DNA of 64,000 nt. It comes from Ancylobacter sp. IITR112 (GTDB taxonomy: Bacteria > Pseudomonadota > Alphaproteobacteria > Rhizobiales > Xanthobacteraceae). The stretch is taken from assembly GCF_041415945.1 (NCBI RefSeq), contig NZ_JBGCUS010000001.1:2170001-2234000 (forward strand), given 5' to 3'. Below are positions 10,690 to 44,503 of the stretch, piece after piece. Numbering within the stretch: the stretch's first letter is position 1; each line of letters opens with the position of its first letter. A model generated the notes under the pieces. It did not search any database. It was not told where the DNA came from and saw only the letters and a program-made list of their open reading frames with translations. Both the position numbers and the translations under genes were made by a program.

Positions 10690-12153
10690 GTGGCGTCGCG
10701 CTTGGAATGGCTGCTGGACGAGGCTCGCCTGACCGCTCAGACTCTCCTCGACCGCGCCGAGGACCTCAGCAGCCCGACGCTGCGGCTCGGGATCACCGGC
10801 CTGTCCCGCGCAGGTAAGACCGTTTTCACCACCGCCCTGATCCATGCACTCATGCGCGGCGGCCGTCTGCCGGTCTTCCGCGCCATGCATGAGGGGCGCA
10901 TCGCGATCGCCAGGTTGGAACCTCAGCCGGACGACGGCGTGCCCCGCTTCGCCTATGAGGCCCATCTGACCACCCTGGTGGACGACCGGCGCTGGCCCGA
11001 ATCGACCCGCCGCATCAGCGAGCTGCGGCTTGCCGTCGACTATGCCCCGGCGCGGGGCGGCAGGCGGACGCTCACGCTGGACATCGTCGATTATCCCGGC
11101 GAGTGGCTGCTCGACCTGCCCCTGCTGGACCAGTCCTTTGCGGATTTCTGCCGGCAGAGCCTGGCGCTCGCCCGCGCCCCCGCCCGCCATCCGTTGGCCG
11201 GGCCGTTCCTTTCCGCTCTCGCGGCATGCGCCCCCGACGGGGCCGCCGACGAGGCCGAAGCGCGCCGGCTGGCGGCACTGTTCACCGACTATCTCGCCGC
11301 CTGCCGCGCCGAGACCGTCTCCATGAGCCTTCTGCCGCCCGGGCGCTTCCTGATGCCGGGGGATCTCGAAGGCTCGCCCGCCCTCACCTTCGCCCCGCTC
11401 GATATTGCGGAGGGCGCGGCGGCGCCGTCGGGCTCGCTCCACGCCATGATGGAGCGGCGGTTCGATGCCTATAAGGAGCGCATTGTCCGGCCCTTCTTCC
11501 ACGACCATTTCGCCCGCCTCGACCGGCAGATCGTGCTGATCGACGTGCTGTCGGCGCTGAATGCCGGGCCGGCAGCGCTGGCGGACCTCGAATCCGCGCT
11601 GGACGGAATCCTTGCGGCCTTCCGCATCGGTCGGAATTCATGGCTAACGGCGCTTTTCCGCCACCGGATCGGCAAGGTTCTGTTCGCCGCCACCAAGGCC
11701 GACCACCTCCACCACACCAGCCACGACCCGCTGGAGGCGATCCTGCGGCGTCTGGTGGAGCGCGCACTTGACCGCGCGCAAGGGGCCGGCGCCGAGATCG
11801 ACGTGGTCGCGCTCGCCGCGGTGCGGGCCACGCGCGAAGCCATGGTAAAGCGCGGACGCGCCCATCTGCCCGCGATTGTCGGCGTGCCCGAAGCCGGACA
11901 GCATGGGGCAGAGGCGTTTGACGGGTTGGCCGAAGCCGCGGTTTTCCCCGGCGACCTGCCGGAGAATCCCGCCGCGCTGTTCGATCCCGCCCACGGCTTC
12001 AACGGCCTGTCGGACGCTGCCGGAGGCGATTTCCGCTTCCTACGCTTCCGCCCCCCGCAGGTGGAACGCAACGCGGAGGGTCTGGCGCTGCCGCTTCCCC
12101 ATATTCGTCTCGACCGGGCGCTGGAATTCCTCCTCGGCGATCGGCTGAGCTAG
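10690..12153 (+). CDS. ycjX: YcjX-family P-loop protein (DUF463)
   Basis: The protein has 487 residues and a GTP/ATP-binding P-loop GLSRAGKT at 37-44. A distinctive second motif, DIVDYPGEWLLDLPLL, lies where the Walker B/G3 element is expected. These are diagnostic of the YcjX family. In E. coli, ycjX sits with ycjF beside the phage-shock genes and responds to envelope stress; its activity remains poorly defined. The start is a GTG at 10690, two bases after the sixA stop. The ycjF homologue follows after 22 bases, preserving the family pairing although no psp genes are present here. Confidence 0.9.
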   Translation: MASRLEWLLDEARLTAQTLLDRAEDLSSPTLRLGITGLSRAGKTVFTTALIHALMRGGRLPVFRAMHEGRIAIARLEPQPDDGVPRFAYEAHLTTLVDDRRWPESTRRISELRLAVDYAPARGGRRTLTLDIVDYPGEWLLDLPLLDQSFADFCRQSLALARAPARHPLAGPFLSALAACAPDGAADEAEARRLAALFTDYLAACRAETVSMSLLPPGRFLMPGDLEGSPALTFAPLDIAEGAAAPSGSLHAMMERRFDAYKERIVRPFFHDHFARLDRQIVLIDVLSALNAGPAALADLESALDGILAAFRIGRNSWLTALFRHRIGKVLFAATKADHLHHTSHDPLEAILRRLVERALDRAQGAGAEIDVVALAAVRATREAMVKRGRAHLPAIVGVPEAGQHGAEAFDGLAEAAVFPGDLPENPAALFDPAHGFNGLSDAAGGDFRFLRFRPPQVERNAEGLALPLPHIRLDRALEFLLGDRLS

Positions 12154-12175
12154 ATCCCGGCTGGAACGGACCCTC

Positions 12176-13930
<1,755 letters not shown>

Positions 13931-16900
13931 ATGTCGACGAACACGAAGAAGATTGAGCAGGATCCCGCCGAGGCCGCGCTCTCGGCCATTGAGGAGGCGC
14001 TCAGTCTCGACCATGCGCCCAATGACGGCTTTGCCGCCTCGGGGCAGGACGACTTCGAGCTCCCCCCGGCCCGCGAGCCGGAGGGGCCGCGGATCGAGAC
14101 CCGCGCCGGCGCCGCCGGCGACACGGGATCCTCGCGCTTTCTCGATGAGATCGACCTGTTCGGCGACACCGCCGAGCCGGAGGAATTTGACGCTTCATCG
14201 CTCGGCGATGATGATTTCTCCCTGTCTGACCCCGATCTTTCCGACACCGCCGAGCTCGACCGCGCCAGCGAGCCGAATTTCGATTTTACCGCCAGCAGCG
14301 AAAGCAGCGTGAGCCCGGCCCCCGCCCTTGCGGCGGCCGCAGGCGCGGCTGCCGCGGGCGCGACGGCGGCATTGCCGCGCGGCGACACGCGGTCTGGGCC
14401 GGACGCCACGGATTCGCCGGCTGCGGCACCCAAGGGGCGCCGCGCCGCCAATGACGACCGCGAAAGCATCGGCCAGCTCCTGGCTTCGCTGCAGCGGCGC
14501 CCGTCCTCGACCCCCTACATCGTCGCCACAATCGCCTCGCTCGGCTGGCTCGTCGTCGCCGGCGTGCTGCTGCAGACGCAGTTCGGCGCTCTCGGCGGCG
14601 ACGCCTCCGCGCTGTTGAATGCCCCCGGCTTCCTCGCCGGCGTAGCGGCAACGCTCGTGCCGCCGATTTTCTTTGTCGTGCTGGCCGCCATGGTTCGGCG
14701 CATGCAGGAAATGCGGATCGTCGCCTATTCCATGGCGCAGGTCGCCATCCGGCTCGCCGAGCCGGCCAAAGCGCCGGCCCCAGCTCCTGCCCCTGCGGCG
14801 ACGCCGATCGTCGCGACGGCGGCGAGCCTCGCCGCGATCCAGATGCCGGAGGGCGTCTCGCCCGATACGCTTGCCCAGTATGCCGGGCTTGAACAGGCGG
14901 TCACCCGCGCCAGCGAGGCGGAAGCCTTCGTGCGCGGCGAAGTGGCGGCGCTGGCGCAGGCCTATGACGACAATAACCGCAAGATGCATCAGTTGATCGA
15001 GCGCCTGCAGCTCGAGCGCGATGCCATCCTGACACAGACCGAACATGTGCGAGAAACCCTCGCCGCCTCGCAATTCACCTTCGCCGAGGAAGTTGGCAAC
15101 GTCAGCGACCGCATCAACGAAACCGTGACGTTGGCCGCCGACCGGGTGGCTCACACGCTGTCGGATCGTGGCGAACACATCACCCTCGCGCTCGGCCGCG
15201 TCGGCGACACGATCATCGAGGCTCTGTCCGACAAGGGCGGCGACCTGATCGACCGGCTGCAGGCCACCGGGTCGGAGGTCAACACCAACCTGTCCGATTC
15301 CAGCGAGCACCTGCTGTCGTCTCTGGCCGCCAAGAGCGACGAGATCGGCAACCGGCTGTCCGGCGTCACCACGCAGTTGACCGAGACGCTCAGCACGCGG
15401 ACCGATGAGATCAGCCGCCAGCTCTCGGGAGCCACCGACAACCTCTCCAAGACGCTCACCGCGCGCTCCGACGAAATCGGGCTGCGGCTGGCCGGCATTG
15501 CCGAGAACCTCACCGACACGCTCGCGACCCGCACGGACGCGATCAGCCGCCAGCTTGCGGGGGTCACGGAAAACCTTTCCGACACGCTGTCGATCCGCAC
15601 CGACGAGATCAGCCGCCAGCTTACCGGCGTCACCGAGAACCTGTCGGACACGCTCGCCGCGCGCACCGACGAGATCGGCGACCGGCTGCTGCGCACCGCC
15701 GCCGAGCTGTCGCATGTCGTCAATCTGCGAACCGAGGAACTCGGCGACAAGCTGTCCGCGACGACCATCAACCTCACCAGCACGCTCACGGCCCGTTCGG
15801 ACGAGATCACCGATGCTCTGGTGAGCACCGGAACGCGGCTCGCCGATGAGATCGCCATTCGGGCCAGTCAGGTCAATCAGACGCTCAAGACCACCGGCGA
15901 CGCGCTCGTGCTCGACCTTTCCGTGCGCGGCGGCGAAGTCGTGCGCAAGCTGGAAGAAACCGGCAACCGCGTGGCCGACACCATCACTGTGCGCGGCGAC
16001 GATCTCGCCGACCGCATCGCCGATACCGGCAACCGCATCTACGACGCCGTCGCCGTGCGTGGCGCCGAGCTGGAGCGGCTGCTGGGCGAAACCGGCCAGC
16101 GCGTCGTCCACCAGCTTTCGCAGGCCGGCACCGGCATTCACGACGCCCTCGCCGAGGCCGCCGGCCGCGTCTCGCAGGATATCGACTATCGCGGGCAGGC
16201 GCTCACCCAGCAGCTCGCCCATGTCGGCGCGGAAGCGGCGCAGGCCCTTGCCGATAACGGCGCCCGGGTAACCGAGCAGTTCCGCGAAGCGGCCGACTAC
16301 CTCGCCTCCGACCTCACCACGCGCAGCGAGAACATGCGCGACCATCTGGAACAGCAGTTCCGCAACATCGAGGACCTCGTCAGCGTGCGGGGTGGCGAGA
16401 TCGCCGACCGCATCTCGGTCGACACCTCGACGCTGGGCCGGCAGATCGTCGACGGCCTGCGCGATTTCGACACGGTGCTCAACACCAATGGGGGGCAGTT
16501 GGTCCAGCGGATTTCCGACCGGGTCTCCGCCGTCACCCGCGCCATCGACACCAACCTCTCGGGATTTGACGACCAGGTCTCCACCAAGGCCGAACAGGTG
16601 GCCGCCGCGCTCGACCAGCGCATCGCCAACATTGAAAGCGTGCTCGACCGCGGCGTGGAAGGGCTGAACGCGACGCTGGGCAGCCGCACCGTCGAGTTCG
16701 CCCACACCCTGTCGGAAGGCGCCCGCGAGGCCAATGACGCGATGAGCCAGTCGCTCGGCATGCTCAGCGGCTTCTTCGACGAGCGCGCCAGCACCATCGC
16801 CGATCAGCTCTCGCAGCATATCGACCAGGCCGATCGCACCCTTGCCGCGCGCGCCCAGGACATCGCCACCTCGCTCGACGAGCGGGTTGGCCGCTTCGAG

Positions 16901-19591
16901 GCCACCGTCATCAGCCGGCTCGACAATGTGGCCACCTCGGTCGAGGTGCGCGGGGCGGCGATGGCCGACCTGCTGGGTCAGCGCATCGGCGCCGTCGCCG
17001 GCCAGCTTCGCAGCGAGGCGTCGGAGATCGAGACCAGCCTCACCTCGCTGGTCGACAATGTCAGCCGCACCCTGACCGACCGGGCGGGCGAGGTGACGAC
17101 GCTGTTCGATTCGCGCACCGACGAGATCGCCCGCATCGTCGAGGAGCGCGGCAACGGCCTGCTCACGGCGCTGGAAGACCGCAGCATCTCCATAACCAGC
17201 GAGATCGCCCGCGCCAGCACCGAACTGCTCTCCGCGATCGACGATCACCGCCAGAATCTGGTGACGGCGCTCGACACCACCCGCAACGGCGCCGTCTCCG
17301 ACATCATGCGCGCCAGCGACGAGTTGCTGAACACGCTGGAGGCCCGTTCCGACGCCATCATCTCGGCGTTCGACACCGCGACGACCGGCCGCGCCGATCA
17401 GCTTATGCAGATCAGCGGCGATGTCGTCTCCTCGCTGCAGCAGATCACCGGCGATGTCGCAGCCTCGCTGCAGGCCGCGGGCGGCGAGGTCACCGCCTCG
17501 CTGCAGTCGGTCGGCAGTGACGTCAACGGCCAGCTCAAGATGATCACCGGCGAGGTGTCGACCTCGCTGCGCCAGATCGGCGGTCAGGTCACACAGGAGA
17601 TCGCCACCGCCGGCGACGCGCTGCTCAGCGAATTCGACGGCCGCGGCGCCCAGCTCGTGGAAAGCGCCCGCCAGGCTGCCGCCCTGGCCACCAGCGAGTT
17701 CTCCCGCCTCGTCGACGAGTTCGACGGCCGGGGCAACCAGTTGGTGGAAAGCGTCCGTCAGGCCACTGGCGGCGCCGCCGAGGAATTCGCCCGGCTCGTC
17801 GACGAATTCGGCGGCCAGGGTGCCCAGCTCACCGACAGCGCCCGCCGGGTCACCACCGTGGCGTCCGAGGAGTTCGCCCGGCTGGCCGAGGAGTTCGCAG
17901 CGTCGCTCGAAGGCCGCGGCAGCGGCCTGATCGAGGCGATCGGCGCCAGCGGCCGCTCGGCTGTGGCGGAAATCGCCGCCACCAACCAGGCGCTGCAGGG
18001 CGATGTCACTGGCCTGCTTGAGCGACTGGGTGATGTGAATGTCCAGTTGCAGGATGTGCTGGCCAGTTCCGCGACCAATCTCGCCGATACCGAGAAGACC
18101 ATCAGCGAGCGGCTTGAGGCGTTCCGCAGCACGGTGGCCAATGTCGAAGAGGCCAGCGCCGTTGCCTCCTCGCGCATGGACGAGCACATCCGCGCGCTGC
18201 GCTCCGTGTCGACCGACGTGCTCAAGGATGTCGCCCGGCTCAGCCACTCCTTCAGTGAGCAGGCGACGCTCATCACCAACGTCGCCAATGCCCTCGGCAG
18301 CGCGCATGAGAACCTCGACGACACGCTGGGCGGCCGGCATGAGGCGCTGCTGGCCCTCGCCGAGCAGGTCAGCGGCCGCACCGCCGAACTCGACGAGCGG
18401 CTGTCCCAGTACACCAGCACGCTCGAGAGCACCTTCGGCCGCGCCGAAGAGCGGGTGGGCGCCATCTCCAAGGCGATCCTGGCGGCCGCCAGCAGCTCGA
18501 CCGAAGCGATCATGCGCCAGCAGCAGGAAGTCCGCGAGGCGACCGAGTCCGAGCGCGAGCGCACCCTCGCCTCGCTGCACGAGACCTATGAACAGGCCGT
18601 GCGCGAGGTCGAGACGCTGATGCGCCAGGCCAATCAGGGCTTCTCCGGCACCGCCCAGTCGCTGCGCGCCTCCGTGCTCGACATTCAACGCCTGCTGGAG
18701 ACCACCCGCGAGGAACTCAAGCGCGGCATCATGGAACTGCCGGAGGAAACCGAGGCCAATGCCTCGGCCATGCGCCGGACCGTCGCCGAGCAGATCAAGG
18801 CTCTAGCCGAGCTGAACGAGATCGTCTCGCGCCACGGCCGCACCCTGGATGTCGAGAGCGGCCCGCGTTCGCGCCCGGCGGCTCCGCTGCCGGGCCCCGC
18901 GCCGCAGCCCGCCGCGCCGGCGCCTGCCGCGAGGGCGCCGCTGGCCCGTCCTCAGGCGCCGTCACCGCGCCCTGAGCCGGCCGCGCGCCCGGAGGCGCCG
19001 GCTTATTTCGAGGCGCCGCGCGGCAACGGCACTACGGCCCCCACGCCGCCGCGCCGCGCCAACCCCACCGTCCCCTCGCCGGAACGCGGCGGCGGATCGG
19101 ACAAGGGGGGATGGCTGTCTGAACTGCTGGCGCGCGCTTCCGATGGCGAATCCGCTGCGCCGGTCGGGCCGATGCCCCGCAGCGTTCCGGCGACCCCGCC
19201 GCGCAATTTCGACCCGCGGCAGGGCCAGCCCGAGCGGCCGGTGCACCACACCATCGAGTCGCTCGACTCGCTGTCGGTGGACATTGCCCGAATGATCGAC
19301 CACGAGGCCGCGGTGGATCTTTGGGAGCGCTACAAGAAGGGTGAGCGCAACGTCTTCACCCGCCGCCTCTACACGATGCAGGGCCAGCAGACCTTCGAGG
19401 AAATCCGCCGCAAGTACCGGCGCGACCTCGAGTTCCGCGACACGGTCGACCGTTATATCGCCGAGTTCGAGCGTCTTCTGGAGCAGGTCTCGCGCGACGA
19501 GCGCGGGCAGGAACTGACGAAGACGTACCTCACCTCCGACACGGGCAAGGTCTACACGCTGCTCGCCCACGCCGCCGGCCGCTTCGACTGA
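13931..19591 (+). CDS. Giant apolipoprotein-like repeat protein, GPR/RgsE-like polar growth scaffold
   Basis: The protein has 1886 residues. An acidic, disordered N-terminus (1-190) precedes two membrane helices (about 195-217 and 232-254). From residue 388 to 1245 I can divide the chain without any gap into 11-residue units (78 hendecads, or 39 units of 22). Each unit starts with a Leu/Ile/Val position, and the best conserved units read like LTGVTENLSDTLAARTDEIG. After further helical repeats to about 1630 comes a Pro/Ala-rich linker (1640-1770). The C-terminal domain (1771-1886) contains AAVDLWERYKKGERN and TYLTSDTGKVYTLLAHA. This organisation matches the Growth Pole Ring protein of Agrobacterium and RgsE of Sinorhizobium, which organise polar cell-wall growth. 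The family call is an inference from architecture. Confidence 0.82.
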   Translation: MSTNTKKIEQDPAEAALSAIEEALSLDHAPNDGFAASGQDDFELPPAREPEGPRIETRAGAAGDTGSSRFLDEIDLFGDTAEPEEFDASSLGDDDFSLSDPDLSDTAELDRASEPNFDFTASSESSVSPAPALAAAAGAAAAGATAALPRGDTRSGPDATDSPAAAPKGRRAANDDRESIGQLLASLQRRPSSTPYIVATIASLGWLVVAGVLLQTQFGALGGDASALLNAPGFLAGVAATLVPPIFFVVLAAMVRRMQEMRIVAYSMAQVAIRLAEPAKAPAPAPAPAATPIVATAASLAAIQMPEGVSPDTLAQYAGLEQAVTRASEAEAFVRGEVAALAQAYDDNNRKMHQLIERLQLERDAILTQTEHVRETLAASQFTFAEEVGNVSDRINETVTLAADRVAHTLSDRGEHITLALGRVGDTIIEALSDKGGDLIDRLQATGSEVNTNLSDSSEHLLSSLAAKSDEIGNRLSGVTTQLTETLSTRTDEISRQLSGATDNLSKTLTARSDEIGLRLAGIAENLTDTLATRTDAISRQLAGVTENLSDTLSIRTDEISRQLTGVTENLSDTLAARTDEIGDRLLRTAAELSHVVNLRTEELGDKLSATTINLTSTLTARSDEITDALVSTGTRLADEIAIRASQVNQTLKTTGDALVLDLSVRGGEVVRKLEETGNRVADTITVRGDDLADRIADTGNRIYDAVAVRGAELERLLGETGQRVVHQLSQAGTGIHDALAEAAGRVSQDIDYRGQALTQQLAHVGAEAAQALADNGARVTEQFREAADYLASDLTTRSENMRDHLEQQFRNIEDLVSVRGGEIADRISVDTSTLGRQIVDGLRDFDTVLNTNGGQLVQRISDRVSAVTRAIDTNLSGFDDQVSTKAEQVAAALDQRIANIESVLDRGVEGLNATLGSRTVEFAHTLSEGAREANDAMSQSLGMLSGFFDERASTIADQLSQHIDQADRTLAARAQDIATSLDERVGRFEATVISRLDNVATSVEVRGAAMADLLGQRIGAVAGQLRSEASEIETSLTSLVDNVSRTLTDRAGEVTTLFDSRTDEIARIVEERGNGLLTALEDRSISITSEIARASTELLSAIDDHRQNLVTALDTTRNGAVSDIMRASDELLNTLEARSDAIISAFDTATTGRADQLMQISGDVVSSLQQITGDVAASLQAAGGEVTASLQSVGSDVNGQLKMITGEVSTSLRQIGGQVTQEIATAGDALLSEFDGRGAQLVESARQAAALATSEFSRLVDEFDGRGNQLVESVRQATGGAAEEFARLVDEFGGQGAQLTDSARRVTTVASEEFARLAEEFAASLEGRGSGLIEAIGASGRSAVAEIAATNQALQGDVTGLLERLGDVNVQLQDVLASSATNLADTEKTISERLEAFRSTVANVEEASAVASSRMDEHIRALRSVSTDVLKDVARLSHSFSEQATLITNVANALGSAHENLDDTLGGRHEALLALAEQVSGRTAELDERLSQYTSTLESTFGRAEERVGAISKAILAAASSSTEAIMRQQQEVREATESERERTLASLHETYEQAVREVETLMRQANQGFSGTAQSLRASVLDIQRLLETTREELKRGIMELPEETEANASAMRRTVAEQIKALAELNEIVSRHGRTLDVESGPRSRPAAPLPGPAPQPAAPAPAARAPLARPQAPSPRPEPAARPEAPAYFEAPRGNGTTAPTPPRRANPTVPSPERGGGSDKGGWLSELLARASDGESAAPVGPMPRSVPATPPRNFDPRQGQPERPVHHTIESLDSLSVDIARMIDHEAAVDLWERYKKGERNVFTRRLYTMQGQQTFEEIRRKYRRDLEFRDTVDRYIAEFERLLEQVSRDERGQELTKTYLTSDTGKVYTLLAHAAGRFD
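15092..17665 (+). repeat. Coding 33/66-bp repeat array (hendecad repeats)
   Basis: Within the giant gene the protein phase of 11 residues is kept for 78 consecutive units (residues 388-1245). The most similar units are five to seven 66-bp copies at 15356-15817, where TENLSDTL and ARTDEI recur. Similarity decays downstream, but the phase does not slip. Confidence 0.85.
17618..17878 (+). repeat. Three 87-bp coding repeats (29 residues each)
   Basis: Three successive 29-residue units contain LVDEFDGRG-like cores followed by QLVES and a Glu-Phe near the end, at 17618-17704, 17705-17791 and 17792-17878. They mark a change from the 11-residue phase to a mixed period. Confidence 0.75.
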
Positions 19592-24714: not shown

Positions 24715-26250
24715 TCAGCGGCGAGCGCGCAGCAGCCCGACGAGATAGCGGCGCCCGAACAGCGCCAGAGCCAGTACCGCATAAACGAGCCCGCCCGCCA
24801 CGACGCAAAGGGCGAGAAGCGCCTCGTCGCGGCCATGGGGAAGCAGGCCGACCCCGCGCGGCGCGAGGTAGGCAGTGGCGACCAGAGTAGCGGCGAGCGC
24901 GACGAAGATCAGCCCCAGCCGGGGGACGGCCCGGAGCAATTGGGCATCGCCGCATTCATAGCCGCGCCAGCGCGCCAGCAGGGCGAGCACGATCACGGTG
25001 ATCCAGCCCCCGACCGAGGTGGCGAAGGCCAGTCCCACCTGGGCCAGCGAGCCCATCAGCAGCACCTTGAGGCCGATATTGACCACCGCCGCTCCCAGCG
25101 TCGCCAGCACCGGGGTACGGGTATCGCCGCGAGCATAGAAGGGCGACATGAAGGCGCGCACCACGACGAAAGGCGCCAGCCCAATGCCATAGGCCGCCAG
25201 CGTGGCGCCCGCCTCGCGGGCGGCCTCCGGGGTAAAGGCGCCGCGCATGAACAGCCCGCGCATGATGACCTCCGGGATGGTCAGCGCTGCGGCGAGGAAG
25301 GGCAGAACCAGCAGCAGCGTCAGTTCGATGGCACGCGACTGGGCGAAGCGCGCGCCGTCGAAATCCTCCGCCGCGATGCGCCGCGACATTTCCGGCAGCA
25401 GCACGATGCCCGCGGCAATGCCGACAACGCCGATCGGCAACTGGTTGATGCGGTCGGCATAAAACAGCGCCGCCACCGCCCCCTCCGGCAGGAAGGAGGC
25501 GATGATGGTGTCGGCGAAGATCGCCAGTTGCACGCCGGCCGAGCCGATAATCGCCGGGCCGAGGGCGATGAGGAAGGCGCGGGTCTCCGGATCGAGCCGC
25601 GGCCGGCCGAAGCGCAGACCGAGACCGTGGCGTTCGGCATCGAACACCAGCAGACCGAGCTGGAGGAAACCGGAGATCAGTACTCCCCAGGCCGCGGCAT
25701 GGCCGGCGGTGGGAAACAGGCCGGCGACGCTGAGCGTGCCGACCATGGCGACATTGAGCAGGATGGACGCCGCCGCCGCCGCCCAGAAACGGTCATTGGC
25801 GTTGAGCACGCCGCCGACCAGCGTCACCACCGCGATGAGGCCGAGATAGGGGAAGGTAATGCGGGTGAAATCGACCGTGAGGGCGAATCGGCCGGGATCA
25901 TCGGACAGGCCGGGCGCGAGCGTCGCCACCACCCAGTCGGTGGCGAGCAGGGCGATGGCAAGGATGGCCAATTGCACCAGCACCACGCCGGTGAGGATGC
26001 CGTCGGCGAAGCGGCGCGCCTTGGCGTCGCCCTCCACCGTCTTCACCCGGGCATAGGCGGGGATGAAGGCGGTGTTGAAGGCGCCCTCGGCGAAGATGGA
26101 GCGGAAATGATTGGGCAGGCGGAAAGCGATGTAGAAGGCATCCGCCAGCGGGCCGGCGCCGAGCACCGCCGCCATGACGATGTCACGCACAAAACCGGTC
26201 AGCCGCGAGAGAAGCGTCCAGCCGCCGACCGTGAAGATGCTGCGTATCAT
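24715..26250 (-). CDS. murJ: Lipid II flippase MurJ
   Basis: This polytopic membrane protein has 511 residues and the MOP-exporter fold with about 14 helices. It flips lipid-linked peptidoglycan precursor across the inner membrane. N-terminal family signatures are visible: TLLSRLTGFVRDIVMAAVLG, ADAFYIAFRLPNHFRSIFAE and GAFNTAFIPAYARV, with the conserved Arg residues and Asp that line the central cavity. Later conserved parts include FYARGDTRTPV. The gene is followed by the efflux operon and preceded by an aminotransferase gene on the same strand after 88 bases. Confidence 0.95.
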   Translation of the reverse strand: MIRSIFTVGGWTLLSRLTGFVRDIVMAAVLGAGPLADAFYIAFRLPNHFRSIFAEGAFNTAFIPAYARVKTVEGDAKARRFADGILTGVVLVQLAILAIALLATDWVVATLAPGLSDDPGRFALTVDFTRITFPYLGLIAVVTLVGGVLNANDRFWAAAAASILLNVAMVGTLSVAGLFPTAGHAAAWGVLISGFLQLGLLVFDAERHGLGLRFGRPRLDPETRAFLIALGPAIIGSAGVQLAIFADTIIASFLPEGAVAALFYADRINQLPIGVVGIAAGIVLLPEMSRRIAAEDFDGARFAQSRAIELTLLLVLPFLAAALTIPEVIMRGLFMRGAFTPEAAREAGATLAAYGIGLAPFVVVRAFMSPFYARGDTRTPVLATLGAAVVNIGLKVLLMGSLAQVGLAFATSVGGWITVIVLALLARWRGYECGDAQLLRAVPRLGLIFVALAATLVATAYLAPRGVGLLPHGRDEALLALCVVAGGLVYAVLALALFGRRYLVGLLRARR

Positions 26251-42301: not shown

Positions 42302-42490
42302 GCACGACGCTCACCTTGCGACTTCTTGCGTTCGCGGTAGAGGACGCGAGACATGGCGTCATCATATTTTTGACGCTTTCTTGACTGGGAGCGTTTTGCG
42401 CCGGCGAACCGGCCCAGACACGCCGCAATTATTTGAAACCTTCCGGCGGCGGCGGCGTTGAAGACCACCGCAAAGCTGCCGGAGGTGCCC

Positions 42491-44503
42491 ATGCTTCGCC
42501 TGACCCGCCCCCTGCTCGCCGCCGGGATTGGCGCGAGCCTTCTCGCCGGCGTCGCCACACTGCCCGCCTTCGCGCAGAACGCGCCGATACGGCTGGCGCA
42601 GGCCGGCCCGCAGGGCGGCGCCGCGACGATGGACGTGAACCTGTTCTATGACCAGCTCGGCCGCTTCGGCACCTGGGTGGCGCATCCCGATTACGACTAT
42701 GTCTTCATTCCCAGCGATGTCGGCCCGGGCTGGCGCCCCTATCAGGAAGGGCGCTGGGTGTGGACCGAGCAATATGGCTGGTACTGGGAATCCTATGAGC
42801 CCTTCGGCTGGGCGACCTATCATTATGGCCGCTGGGGCTATGACCCCGCCTATGGCTGGTTCTGGGTGCCGGGCGACACCTGGGCGCCGGCCTGGGTGAC
42901 GTGGCGGCGCGGCGGCGGGCGCACCGGCTGGGCGCCGATCGCGCCGGACCGCGCCGGCTTCGCCACCGGCCGGCCGGACCATTACGCCCCGCCGGTGGCG
43001 GAAAGCTGGGTGTTCGTCGAGGACCGCTACATGGCGGAGGAGGACATCGCCGTCCATATCGCGCCGATCCCGCAGATCAGCGTCTATATCGCCGCCGCGC
43101 CGGACGTGTATGAGCCGAGCTGGAATGACGGCTATTACGTCAATCGCGGCTTCGGCTACCGCGTCTATGACGCGCCGGTCCGCGAACGGCTGGTGACGCG
43201 CGAGGTCTATTATGTCGACAATCGCGACGACGTGTTCTTCGACGGCAATGGCGGGCGTCTCGGCATCTTCGCGCCGCGCCTCGATTTCAGCGACCGGCGC
43301 GGCCCGCCGCCGCGCTATGTGCGCGAGATCGAGCCGGACCGCCGGCCGCTGATCCGGCAATATGTGCGCGAGGACAGTGACGTGCCGGGCTGGCTCGCTC
43401 CCTCGGCGGCGCTGCTCAACGTGCTCGACCCCGACCGCCGCCGCGACCTGCGCGAACGCCGCTTCGACGACCCCGACCGCTTCCGCCGGCAGGTGCGCGA
43501 GCTTGAACGCGAGCGGGCCGACCGGATCCGGGAGGAGCGCCAGCAGGCCGAGGCCCGCGCCGATGCCCTGCAGCGCCAGCAGCGCGAGGCGCTGCAGCAG
43601 CGCCGCGCCGTCTATGAAAAGCTGCGCGAGCAGCAGCGCGCCAAGGCGCAGCGTGTGGTGGACCGGGTGGAGAACCAGCCCGGCCCGCGCCCCGGCGGTC
43701 CCGGCATGGGGCCGGGCCGTCCCGGTGGACCGGCGGCGCCCGGCGCCACTCAAGGCGCTCCGGGAGGCCCCGATGCGGCTCCGGCGCGTCCCGGGGGGCC
43801 GAACACCCCCGGTGGCAACGCGACCCCCGGGCGCCCCGGCGCGCCCGGCACGGCGCAAAATCCGCCCGCGACGCCGTCTCCGGTGCCCGGCCAGCCGCCG
43901 GCGGCGGCGCGCCCCGGCCCCGCGCAGCCGCAGAGCAATGCCGACCGGGCCCGGCGCAATCAGGAGATGATCGAGCGTCAGCAGCAGGAGCGTCAGCAGA
44001 AGCAGGAGGCGCAGCAGGAGCAGCAGCGCGCCCGCCAGCAGGAGCGCCAGCAGAAGCAGGAGGCCCAGCAGGAACAGCAGCGCGCCCGCCAGCAGGAACG
44101 CCAGCAGAAGCAGGAGGCCCAGCAGGAGCAGCAGCGCGCCCGCCAGCAGGAACGCCAGCAGAAGCAGGACGCCCAGCAGGAACAGCAGCGCGCCCGCCAG
44201 CAGGAGCGTCAGCAGAAGCAGGAGGCGCAGCAGCAACAACGCCAGCAACAAAGGCAGCAGAACCAGCAGGAGCGTCAGCAGAAGCAGGAGGCGCAGCAGG
44301 AACAGCGTCAGCAACAGAGGCAGCAGCGCCAGCAGCCGCCGCAGGCGGCTCCCCAGCAGGCCCGGCCGGCGCCAAACCAGCCGGCGCGCCCGCCACAGGG
44401 TCAGCCGCGTCCGCCCGGCGGAGGCGGTGGCGGCGGCGGCGGCGGACAGGGTGGCGGCGGCGGCAAGCCGGGCCAGCCCCCCATCCCGCCCGGCGCCCAG
44501 TAG
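42491..44503 (+). CDS. Exported DUF6600-type protein with Gln-rich tandem-repeat tail
   Basis: This protein has 670 residues. A signal peptide (AAGIGASLLAGVATLPAFAQ) is cut near residue 28-30. The next 130 residues are rich in Trp and Tyr, with DYDYVFIPSDVGPGWRPY, GRWVWTEQYGWYWESYEPFG and YGWFWVPGDTWAPAWVTWR, typical of DUF6600-like cell-surface proteins. A charged Arg/Gln helix region and a Pro/Gly-rich stretch follow. Four 18-residue repeats (QERQQKQEAQQEQQRARQ) and diverged copies then run to a Gly/Pro-rich end. The ATG at 42491 has GGAGG six bases upstream. Function is unknown; it probably sits in the periplasm or envelope. Confidence 0.8.
   Translation: MLRLTRPLLAAGIGASLLAGVATLPAFAQNAPIRLAQAGPQGGAATMDVNLFYDQLGRFGTWVAHPDYDYVFIPSDVGPGWRPYQEGRWVWTEQYGWYWESYEPFGWATYHYGRWGYDPAYGWFWVPGDTWAPAWVTWRRGGGRTGWAPIAPDRAGFATGRPDHYAPPVAESWVFVEDRYMAEEDIAVHIAPIPQISVYIAAAPDVYEPSWNDGYYVNRGFGYRVYDAPVRERLVTREVYYVDNRDDVFFDGNGGRLGIFAPRLDFSDRRGPPPRYVREIEPDRRPLIRQYVREDSDVPGWLAPSAALLNVLDPDRRRDLRERRFDDPDRFRRQVRELERERADRIREERQQAEARADALQRQQREALQQRRAVYEKLREQQRAKAQRVVDRVENQPGPRPGGPGMGPGRPGGPAAPGATQGAPGGPDAAPARPGGPNTPGGNATPGRPGAPGTAQNPPATPSPVPGQPPAAARPGPAQPQSNADRARRNQEMIERQQQERQQKQEAQQEQQRARQQERQQKQEAQQEQQRARQQERQQKQEAQQEQQRARQQERQQKQDAQQEQQRARQQERQQKQEAQQQQRQQQRQQNQQERQQKQEAQQEQRQQQRQQRQQPPQAAPQQARPAPNQPARPPQGQPRPPGGGGGGGGGGQGGGGGKPGQPPIPPGAQ
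43985..44200 (+). repeat. Four tandem 54-bp coding repeats
   Basis: Four consecutive copies (43985-44038, 44039-44092, 44093-44146, 44147-44200) encode the same 18 residues with only minor base changes and one Glu-to-Asp change. Diverged copies continue to about 44340. Such arrays often vary in copy number between strains. Confidence 0.9.

Follow-up and report, generated by a model that had tools for sequence, protein, structure and literature searches.

The build and large size of GPR and RgsE are an open question in bacterial polar growth. In the window analyzed here, a 64,000-nucleotide stretch of the Ancylobacter sp. IITR112 genome, one open reading frame encodes a protein of 1886 residues with a long rod of 11-residue units at its center (Table 1). 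What is this protein, and what might such a rod do? The best explanation of the data below, to which we assign a probability of roughly 70%, is that this member of Rhizobiales here encodes its GPR/RgsE orthologue, a polar scaffold of very large size whose rod would be a multi-stranded hendecad coiled coil.

Table 1. Parts of the putative gpr/rgsE gene and its divergent neighbor, numbered within the window.
Feature	Position	Strand	Evidence
gpr/rgsE orthologue (almost certain), 1886 aa	13931..19591	+	Open reading frame; C-terminal domain across the order; non-repeat similarity to Agrobacterium and Sinorhizobium/Ensifer proteins
N-terminal short motif PAEAALSAIEEALSLD, residues 12-27	13964..14011	+	At the start of many of 60 order homologues
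Pre-membrane motif AANDDRESIGQLLASLQRRPSS, residues 172-193	14444..14509	+	Conserved in N-terminal alignment
Membrane hairpin, helices 194-216 and 231-258	14510..14704	+	Kyte-Doolittle window of 19, ≥1.6
Post-membrane linker, residues 259-362, homologous but diverged here	14705..15016	+	Alignment to 26 homologues, including four named Rhizobiaceae
Hendecad rod, residues 355-1245, 81 units	14993..17665	+	Unbroken by position-a rule; phase model 363-1292
29-residue (11+11+7) repeat, hendecads passing into heptad-containing units	17629..17854	+	87-bp tandem repeat; slip at 1292/1293
Conserved post-rod helical segment, residues 1381-1650, with TREELKRG..LPEE	18071..18880	+	136/141 proteins, window protein included (query, the window protein's own segment)
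Pro/Ala-rich linker, residues 1651-1769, with short GGWLSELLARAS stretch	18881..19237	+	Sequence
C-terminal domain, 117 aa, residues 1770-1886	19238..19588	+	284/297 order genomes; at least 156/387 class genomes
2Fe-2S ferredoxin (Fer2), divergent from gpr	13219..13539	-	Pfam Fer2 5.9e-12

Relationship to GPR and RgsE

The initial annotation had likened the architecture of the protein to that of GPR of Agrobacterium and RgsE of Sinorhizobium, and the regions outside the repeats bear this out: the membrane hairpin, the post-membrane linker and the C-terminal domain all align with proteins of named Agrobacterium, Sinorhizobium/Ensifer and Rhizobium genomes. Searches with the C-terminal domain and the membrane segment against kin of GPR and RgsE, in which congeners stand in for Atu1348 and SMc00190, gave clear similarity outside the repeats, and the two membrane helices and separate C-terminal domain said to frame the rod do flank it (Table 1). 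The named genomes were scanned with the C-terminal domain of a relative as the query, and the best 80 of 527 relatives include two genomes of Agrobacterium vitis, Agrobacterium sp. a22-2, many Rhizobium, Sinorhizobium terangae, S. americanum, Ensifer adhaerens and E. aridi. The C-terminal domain of the window protein is identical at 80 of 117 positions to those of A. vitis CG78, Agrobacterium sp. a22-2, S. terangae and E. adhaerens, and at 78 of 117 to that of R. phaseoli; the LPEE segment shares 27–31 of 54 residues with the compared Agrobacterium, Sinorhizobium, Ensifer and Rhizobium members. The alignable N-terminal block consists of an ANDD motif before the membrane (missing from some rows), the hairpin and then the linker, which is diverged here and whose profile finds matches in 135 of 141 proteins. 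The short motif at the N-terminus reads AFQALEEALRIDF and similar in named Rhizobiaceae, and W, L, L, A and S of the GGWLSELLARAS stretch are invariant in an alignment of 63 sequences.

The C-terminal domain has a single match in 282 of the 284 order genomes that contain it and two matches in each of G212 and G251; in the family of G187, the gene is present in 244 of 247 genomes. An AlphaFold2 model of the domain has pLDDT values of 64–91 per ten residues (68.4 over the whole 167-residue model), and Foldseek returned no PDB fold match to it at E ≤ 0.001. Of 60 order loci, 59 have a Fer2 gene in the neighborhood of gpr, in 53 cases divergent and no more than 3 kb upstream; the gene is also present at 74 of the 80 named loci (best 80 of 527), some of which are cut short. 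Because its non-repeat regions match named Agrobacterium, Sinorhizobium and Ensifer loci, it occurs in single copy and it has the Fer2 neighbor, the gene is, on sequence grounds, almost certainly a GPR/RgsE orthologue.

Published descriptions invite the same comparison. GPR (Atu1348) is described as having two N-terminal membrane helices and a helical bulk that matches PF01442, as here, and its Pro-rich stretch, its C-terminus required for function and its size of about 2000 residues are comparable in the window protein, which differs in its exact length (1886 as against 2115 residues) and in its diverged linker (PMC8262873). RgsE of Sinorhizobium meliloti (SMc00190) is described as 2089 residues long and cytoplasmic, with two membrane helices and up to ten apolipoprotein domains (PMC7327166). 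According to these reports, six GPR foci make up a ring of 200 nm close to the growing pole of Agrobacterium, and loss of GPR leads to round cells with dispersed peptidoglycan synthesis (PMC8262873); RgsE is found at the growing pole, with RgsA, RgsS and TolQ as partners (PMC7327166), and the Brucella homologue is likewise at the new pole (PMC9938171). By orthology, the window protein most likely acts as GPR and RgsE do, including the formation of a ring. On the model of Agrobacterium and Sinorhizobium, the hairpin would serve as an inner-membrane anchor and the rod would lie in the cytoplasm, several copies would build a ring at the growing pole, and the ring would confine peptidoglycan synthesis and envelope-building partners to that pole. 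Polar growth cannot be read from the gpr gene alone: there are homologues in order members that have MreB, and many other genomes of the class encode the C-terminal domain.

Two look-alikes were rejected. ZorA of the Zorya defence system is a membrane protein whose tail is long and helical, and the PADLOC and NCBIfam ZorA models match the rod (best 3.2e-25; 42.5 bits against an NCBI cut-off of 700). The matches involve later parts of the models only, with the best stretches starting at model position 223 or beyond in all eight, and no MotA/ExbB/TolQ-like membrane domain was found before the tail in the window protein. No ZorA turned up at 1e-30 in 150 order genomes, where the search controls were silent as well, and a literature search found no paper on the ZorA tail. 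The match to a PspA-like surface protein (NF033930) reached 33 bits against a cut-off of 850.

Further genes lie in the vicinity. A YcjX (DUF463) gene and a TIGR01620/DUF697 gene occupy 10690-13228 (+); each occurs in the gpr flank of 25 of the 60 order loci and neither in those of the 80 named Rhizobiaceae (best 80 of 527), with flank lengths varying in both sets. A gene for the MurJ lipid II flippase (24715-26250, -) is situated about 5 kb downstream of gpr, past an RND efflux pair. Elsewhere in the window, a DUF6600 gene (open reading frame 42458-44503) contains a 54/108-bp tandem array with >90% match (43979-44335, +), rich in Gln and Arg/Glu codons.

The hendecad register and its maintenance

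Residues 388–1245 had been divided by hand into 78 hendecads, and computation confirms the division: there are zero indels, position a is I, L, M, V, F, W or Y in 78 of 78 units, position h is hydrophobic in 94% of them (99% with Ala), and the other nine positions are hydrophobic in 3–22%. The run exceeds the earlier claim, reaching 81 units when only position a must be hydrophobic; a rule that also demands a hydrophobic residue or Ala at h leaves 71 units from residue 366. Shuffling the protein 1000 times gave runs no longer than 11 units by the first rule and 6 units by the second. Autocorrelation of hydrophobicity, the check originally proposed, is 0.59–0.62 at lags of 11, 22, 33 and 44, and the periodicity is unbroken within 388–1245. 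Between lags 11 and 44 the autocorrelation does not fall, so the phase does not drift along the rod; the spectrum of hydrophobicity has its maximum at 3.667 residues per turn. Past residue 1245 comes the 29-residue repeat, and an 11-state phase model places the first slip at 1292/1293, which gives the window protein a block of 84.5 units.

At the textbook helix rise of 0.15 nm per residue, the 858 residues of the original run would span 129 nm as a straight helix, in agreement with the annotated length of about 0.13 micrometre. The same arithmetic gives about 255 nm for a straight helix of 1700 residues, the size of the extended helical region for which the GPR paper gives 600 nm (PMC8262873). 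Structure prediction of the rod (AlphaFold2, residues 300–1400, no alignment) returned nearly all helix, at a mean pLDDT of 47.6 that makes the model unusable for the question of assembly.

The initial annotation had further proposed that similarity between units fades while the phase stays exact, and that this reflects selection on helix geometry. Identity between units is indeed 0.15–0.26 over eleven lags, against 0.183 expected from column composition, and is highest at lags of 2 (0.255) and 4 (0.241), a super-repeat of 22 residues. An exact phase could also arise mainly as a by-product of 33/66-bp tandem duplication, with geometry only weakly selected: recombination between such repeats alone would yield in-phase length changes, remnants of DNA repeats of 66, 33 and 87 bp persist at three places in the rod gene (15380-15676, 17407-17473 and 17629-17854), and the 22-residue super-repeat is a signal of the same sort. 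That super-repeat aside, the resemblance between units does not exceed what column composition would give, yet the phase holds. The sister species G077 has a rod equally long, with zero indels relative to the window protein, and positions a and h are identical between the two (0 amino-acid differences at 183 sites) despite 54 synonymous codon differences, while the other nine rod positions differ at 40 of 823 sites. For this one species pair, dN/dS is 0.006 at a and h, 0.051 in the rest of the rod and 0.129 in the remaining protein, with 0.132 for the membrane segment and linker and 0.011 for the C-terminal domain. The constancy of a and h amid synonymous change thus speaks for selection on helix geometry, as far as a single pair can, and against a phase that simply carries over from DNA duplication. 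Slips not explained by a few heptads are also rare in the family (see below), and we regard the duplication account as very improbable.

Coiled coil or lipid-binding helix

The published work on GPR reads its repeats as apolipoprotein domains with a proposed lipid role, and the account given there is in terms of these domains and of 21-residue coiled-coil predictions rather than of a single hendecad register (PMC8262873). The same orthologue could accordingly be pictured with its rod as a giant amphipathic helix lying along the inner leaflet, where it would sort or sequester lipids at the pole, much as the organization of lipids is proposed in that paper (PMC8262873). PF01442 matches the rod at 7.9e-56 in 6 stretches, and the best PDB sequence matches of the rod are apolipoproteins A-IV, A-I and E. 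These PDB and Pfam matches fall within the periodic region, where one chain matches at several places, and we judge the PF01442 match to reflect periodicity and to be no proof of apolipoprotein kinship. The small, Gly-rich e position and the weak overall hydrophobicity also resemble lipid-binding 11-mer helices and count against a coil. The nearest look-alike in regularity is the giant amphipathic helix of perilipin 4 (Plin4), which is unrelated to the window protein and, like the rod, has about 1000 residues of 11-mer repeats with zero indels (29 33-mers within a 968-residue helix); the mean hydrophobic moment is 0.367 here and 0.257 as tabulated for Plin4, the two being averaged differently (PMC5889406).

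The charge of the two helices differs. Plin4, whose 33-mers are well kept, has a positive net charge and coats lipid droplets, and changing it from +1 to -1 per 33-mer turned a construct cytosolic (PMC5889406), whereas the net charge of the window rod is about -1.2 per 18 residues; over 130 homologues the mean is -1.25 per 18 residues, with negative values in all 130. Bulky I, L, V and F are confined to two positions here, whereas the Plin4 helix is described as having no bulky residues (PMC8064757). Pooled over 60 order homologues, position a is bulky and hydrophobic in 98% and h in 87%, e is Gly, Ala, Ser or Thr in 76%, d is basic in 40%, and the far side of the helix is acidic. For HeliQuest, the usual threshold of the lipid discriminant is 0.68; the rod values give about -0.1. 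Coiled coils, moreover, accommodate heptad-sized phase slips, and this is the kind seen in the family. The acidic net charge, the narrow bulky stripe and the heptad-sized slips together favor a multi-stranded coiled-coil rod, insofar as primary structure can tell, and make a helix lying on lipid unlikely.

The anatomy suggests how the coiled coil would work. The rod would form a long straight strut of several strands, in which the bulky a/h stripe, lined by small residues at e and by Arg at d, would be buried between helices and not in lipid. The strict register, together with length changes that are mostly quantised, sharpens the ‘apolipoprotein-like helices’ of GPR into a definite prediction: the rod should be straight, multi-stranded and of known length. 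The published 20-residue deletions in the GPR coiled coils do not correspond to a whole number of hendecads and, if the register there is hendecad, would displace the phase by 9; a shift of 9 is absent among the natural breaks counted here and may contribute to the effects of these deletions.

Rod length and distribution of the family

The phase model was run on 60 homologues hand-picked from 33 families of the order. A single unbroken block was found in 20 and a different pattern in 40, among them L121, which is truncated and has no block; the longest unbroken block, in L093, measures 150.3 units (1653 residues). Because a third of the homologues (20/60) are single-block and reach such lengths, the window rod is mid-range and unexceptional for its family. 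Rods in the family range from 169 to 2075 hendecad residues, or ∼25 to 310 nm at 1.65 nm per hendecad; the hendecad detector found none in L263, L266 and L267.

Where two blocks adjoin, the slip between them is 4, 8 or 1 in 78 of 80 cases across the order (the remaining two are 7) and in 431 of 431 cases among named Rhizobiaceae (best 80 of 527), whose 80 loci are close relatives and non-independent, with three too short to show a rod. In a set of further proteins, 29 of the 30 adjoining slips listed were of heptad kinds and one, in L269, was of 3. Modulo 11, slips of 4, 8 and 1 equal one, two and three heptads, and a slip of 1 also equals one 10-residue unit; the counts leave out phase breaks with an unassigned stretch between blocks. 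In a control, deletions of 1–10 residues were detected in 24 of 24 trials at each size. Rods of the RgsE congeners (S. terangae, E. adhaerens and others) are divided by slips into several blocks. The notion that members from the founding genera are irregular was rejected, given blocks of up to 97 units, with a median of 58, in named Rhizobiaceae (best 80 of 527). The longest block in 77 named loci (from the best 80 of 527) is 3 mod 11 in 54, 7 in 17 and another class in 6, and the main blocks of the two A. vitis genomes, of 938 and 1026 residues, are exactly eight units apart.

Length can also be gauged without the phase model, from the spacing of two conserved anchors located outside the rod. 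In the 20 single-block proteins, this spacing ranges from 391 to 1858 residues and is 10 mod 11 in 15, 6 in four and 0 in one, where 6 is one heptad more than 10. All 58 order proteins with both anchors fill all 11 classes: 17 are at 10, 15 at 6 and 26 spread over the other nine. Taken together, the sequences suggest that rod length changes mostly by whole hendecads and occasionally by heptads, which we propose is because other steps would break the stripe. Against this reading stand the 40 of 60 homologues that lack a single block, the few slips of 7 and 3, and the anchor distances, of which only 32 of 58 fall in the two main classes.

It is conceivable, though we think it rather doubtful, that the GPR rod is a strut of quantised length that sets a physical distance at the growing pole, in which case rod length would set, for example, the spacing of the ring or the reach from the membrane. 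Selection would then admit chiefly the gain or loss of whole hendecads or heptads, and rods over the range of lengths given above would have evolved with both ends unaltered. The gene belongs to a known family, and the quantised hendecad rod appears to be new within the searchable literature: no paper pairing hendecads with the growth pole was found in a search that most of the subscription literature, including the 2019 PNAS paper on GPR, lay outside, and the growth pole ring, coiled coil and apolipoprotein were found together in the searched literature only in the accessible account of GPR (PMC8262873).

Rod length was also compared with the presence of MreB (TIGR00904), which is above cut-off in 31 of 297 order genomes. 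The comparison used 91 hand-chosen order proteins (93 less the truncated L121 and L265, at a contig edge), uncorrected for kinship; its 26 MreB-bearing genomes comprise 25 over the TIGR00904 cut-off and G124, just below it. More than 622 hendecad residues are present in 49 of the 65 MreB-less and 0 of the 26 MreB-bearing genomes (Mann-Whitney p 0.003 on family medians). A direct effect of MreB state on rod length was rejected, as the mixed families f2 and f32 show no visible difference, with one and two MreB-less proteins, respectively, falling inside the MreB-bearing range. This pattern, together with the short rods in several MreB-less families, indicates that ancestry may explain the association.

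Thirteen of the 297 order genomes have no match to the C-terminal domain; several are incomplete, but G036, G068, G135 and G208 are 99–100% complete. A wider search (E ≤ 10) of 36 genomes, six of the 13 included, gave none at E ≤ 0.001 in those six. Members without the domain include G036, G078 and G113 of one family (f36) and G068, G135 and G208 of another (f23), and if these are secondary losses, such genomes are natural tests of the role of the protein. In the wider class, the profile of the domain matches at least 156 of 387 genomes, 6 of them in the order, which leaves 150 or more among the 381 outside it; these counts are a lower bound, since scoring was limited to 12 candidates per genome. 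Distant homologues beyond Rhizobiales have been described in Emcibacterales and Rhodospirillales (PMC7327166).

Fourteen class-level proteins (open reading frames of 720–2130 residues, one of 330) all have an N-terminal hydrophobic stretch, nine of them two separate ones. None has long hendecads, with detectable stretches of 126–336 residues in 3 of 14; this suggests that the long rod arose within Rhizobiales, as an elaboration of an older, TipN-like plan. TipN, a new-pole protein of 882 residues in Caulobacter, is called similar or analogous to GPR in published accounts (PMC8546619, PMC13170164). Class genomes examined here contain open frames of 720–1010 residues, with an N-terminal membrane stretch and the GPR C-terminal domain and without the long rod; their kinship to TipN is a lead that comes from the published statement and not from sequence. 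Short open reading frames occur as well: those of family f70 (L282, L283, L285 and L286), of 330–377 residues, match the GPR C-terminal domain weakly, and the one examined, L294, of 330 residues, combines a membrane hairpin with almost no rod, possibly a minimal form.
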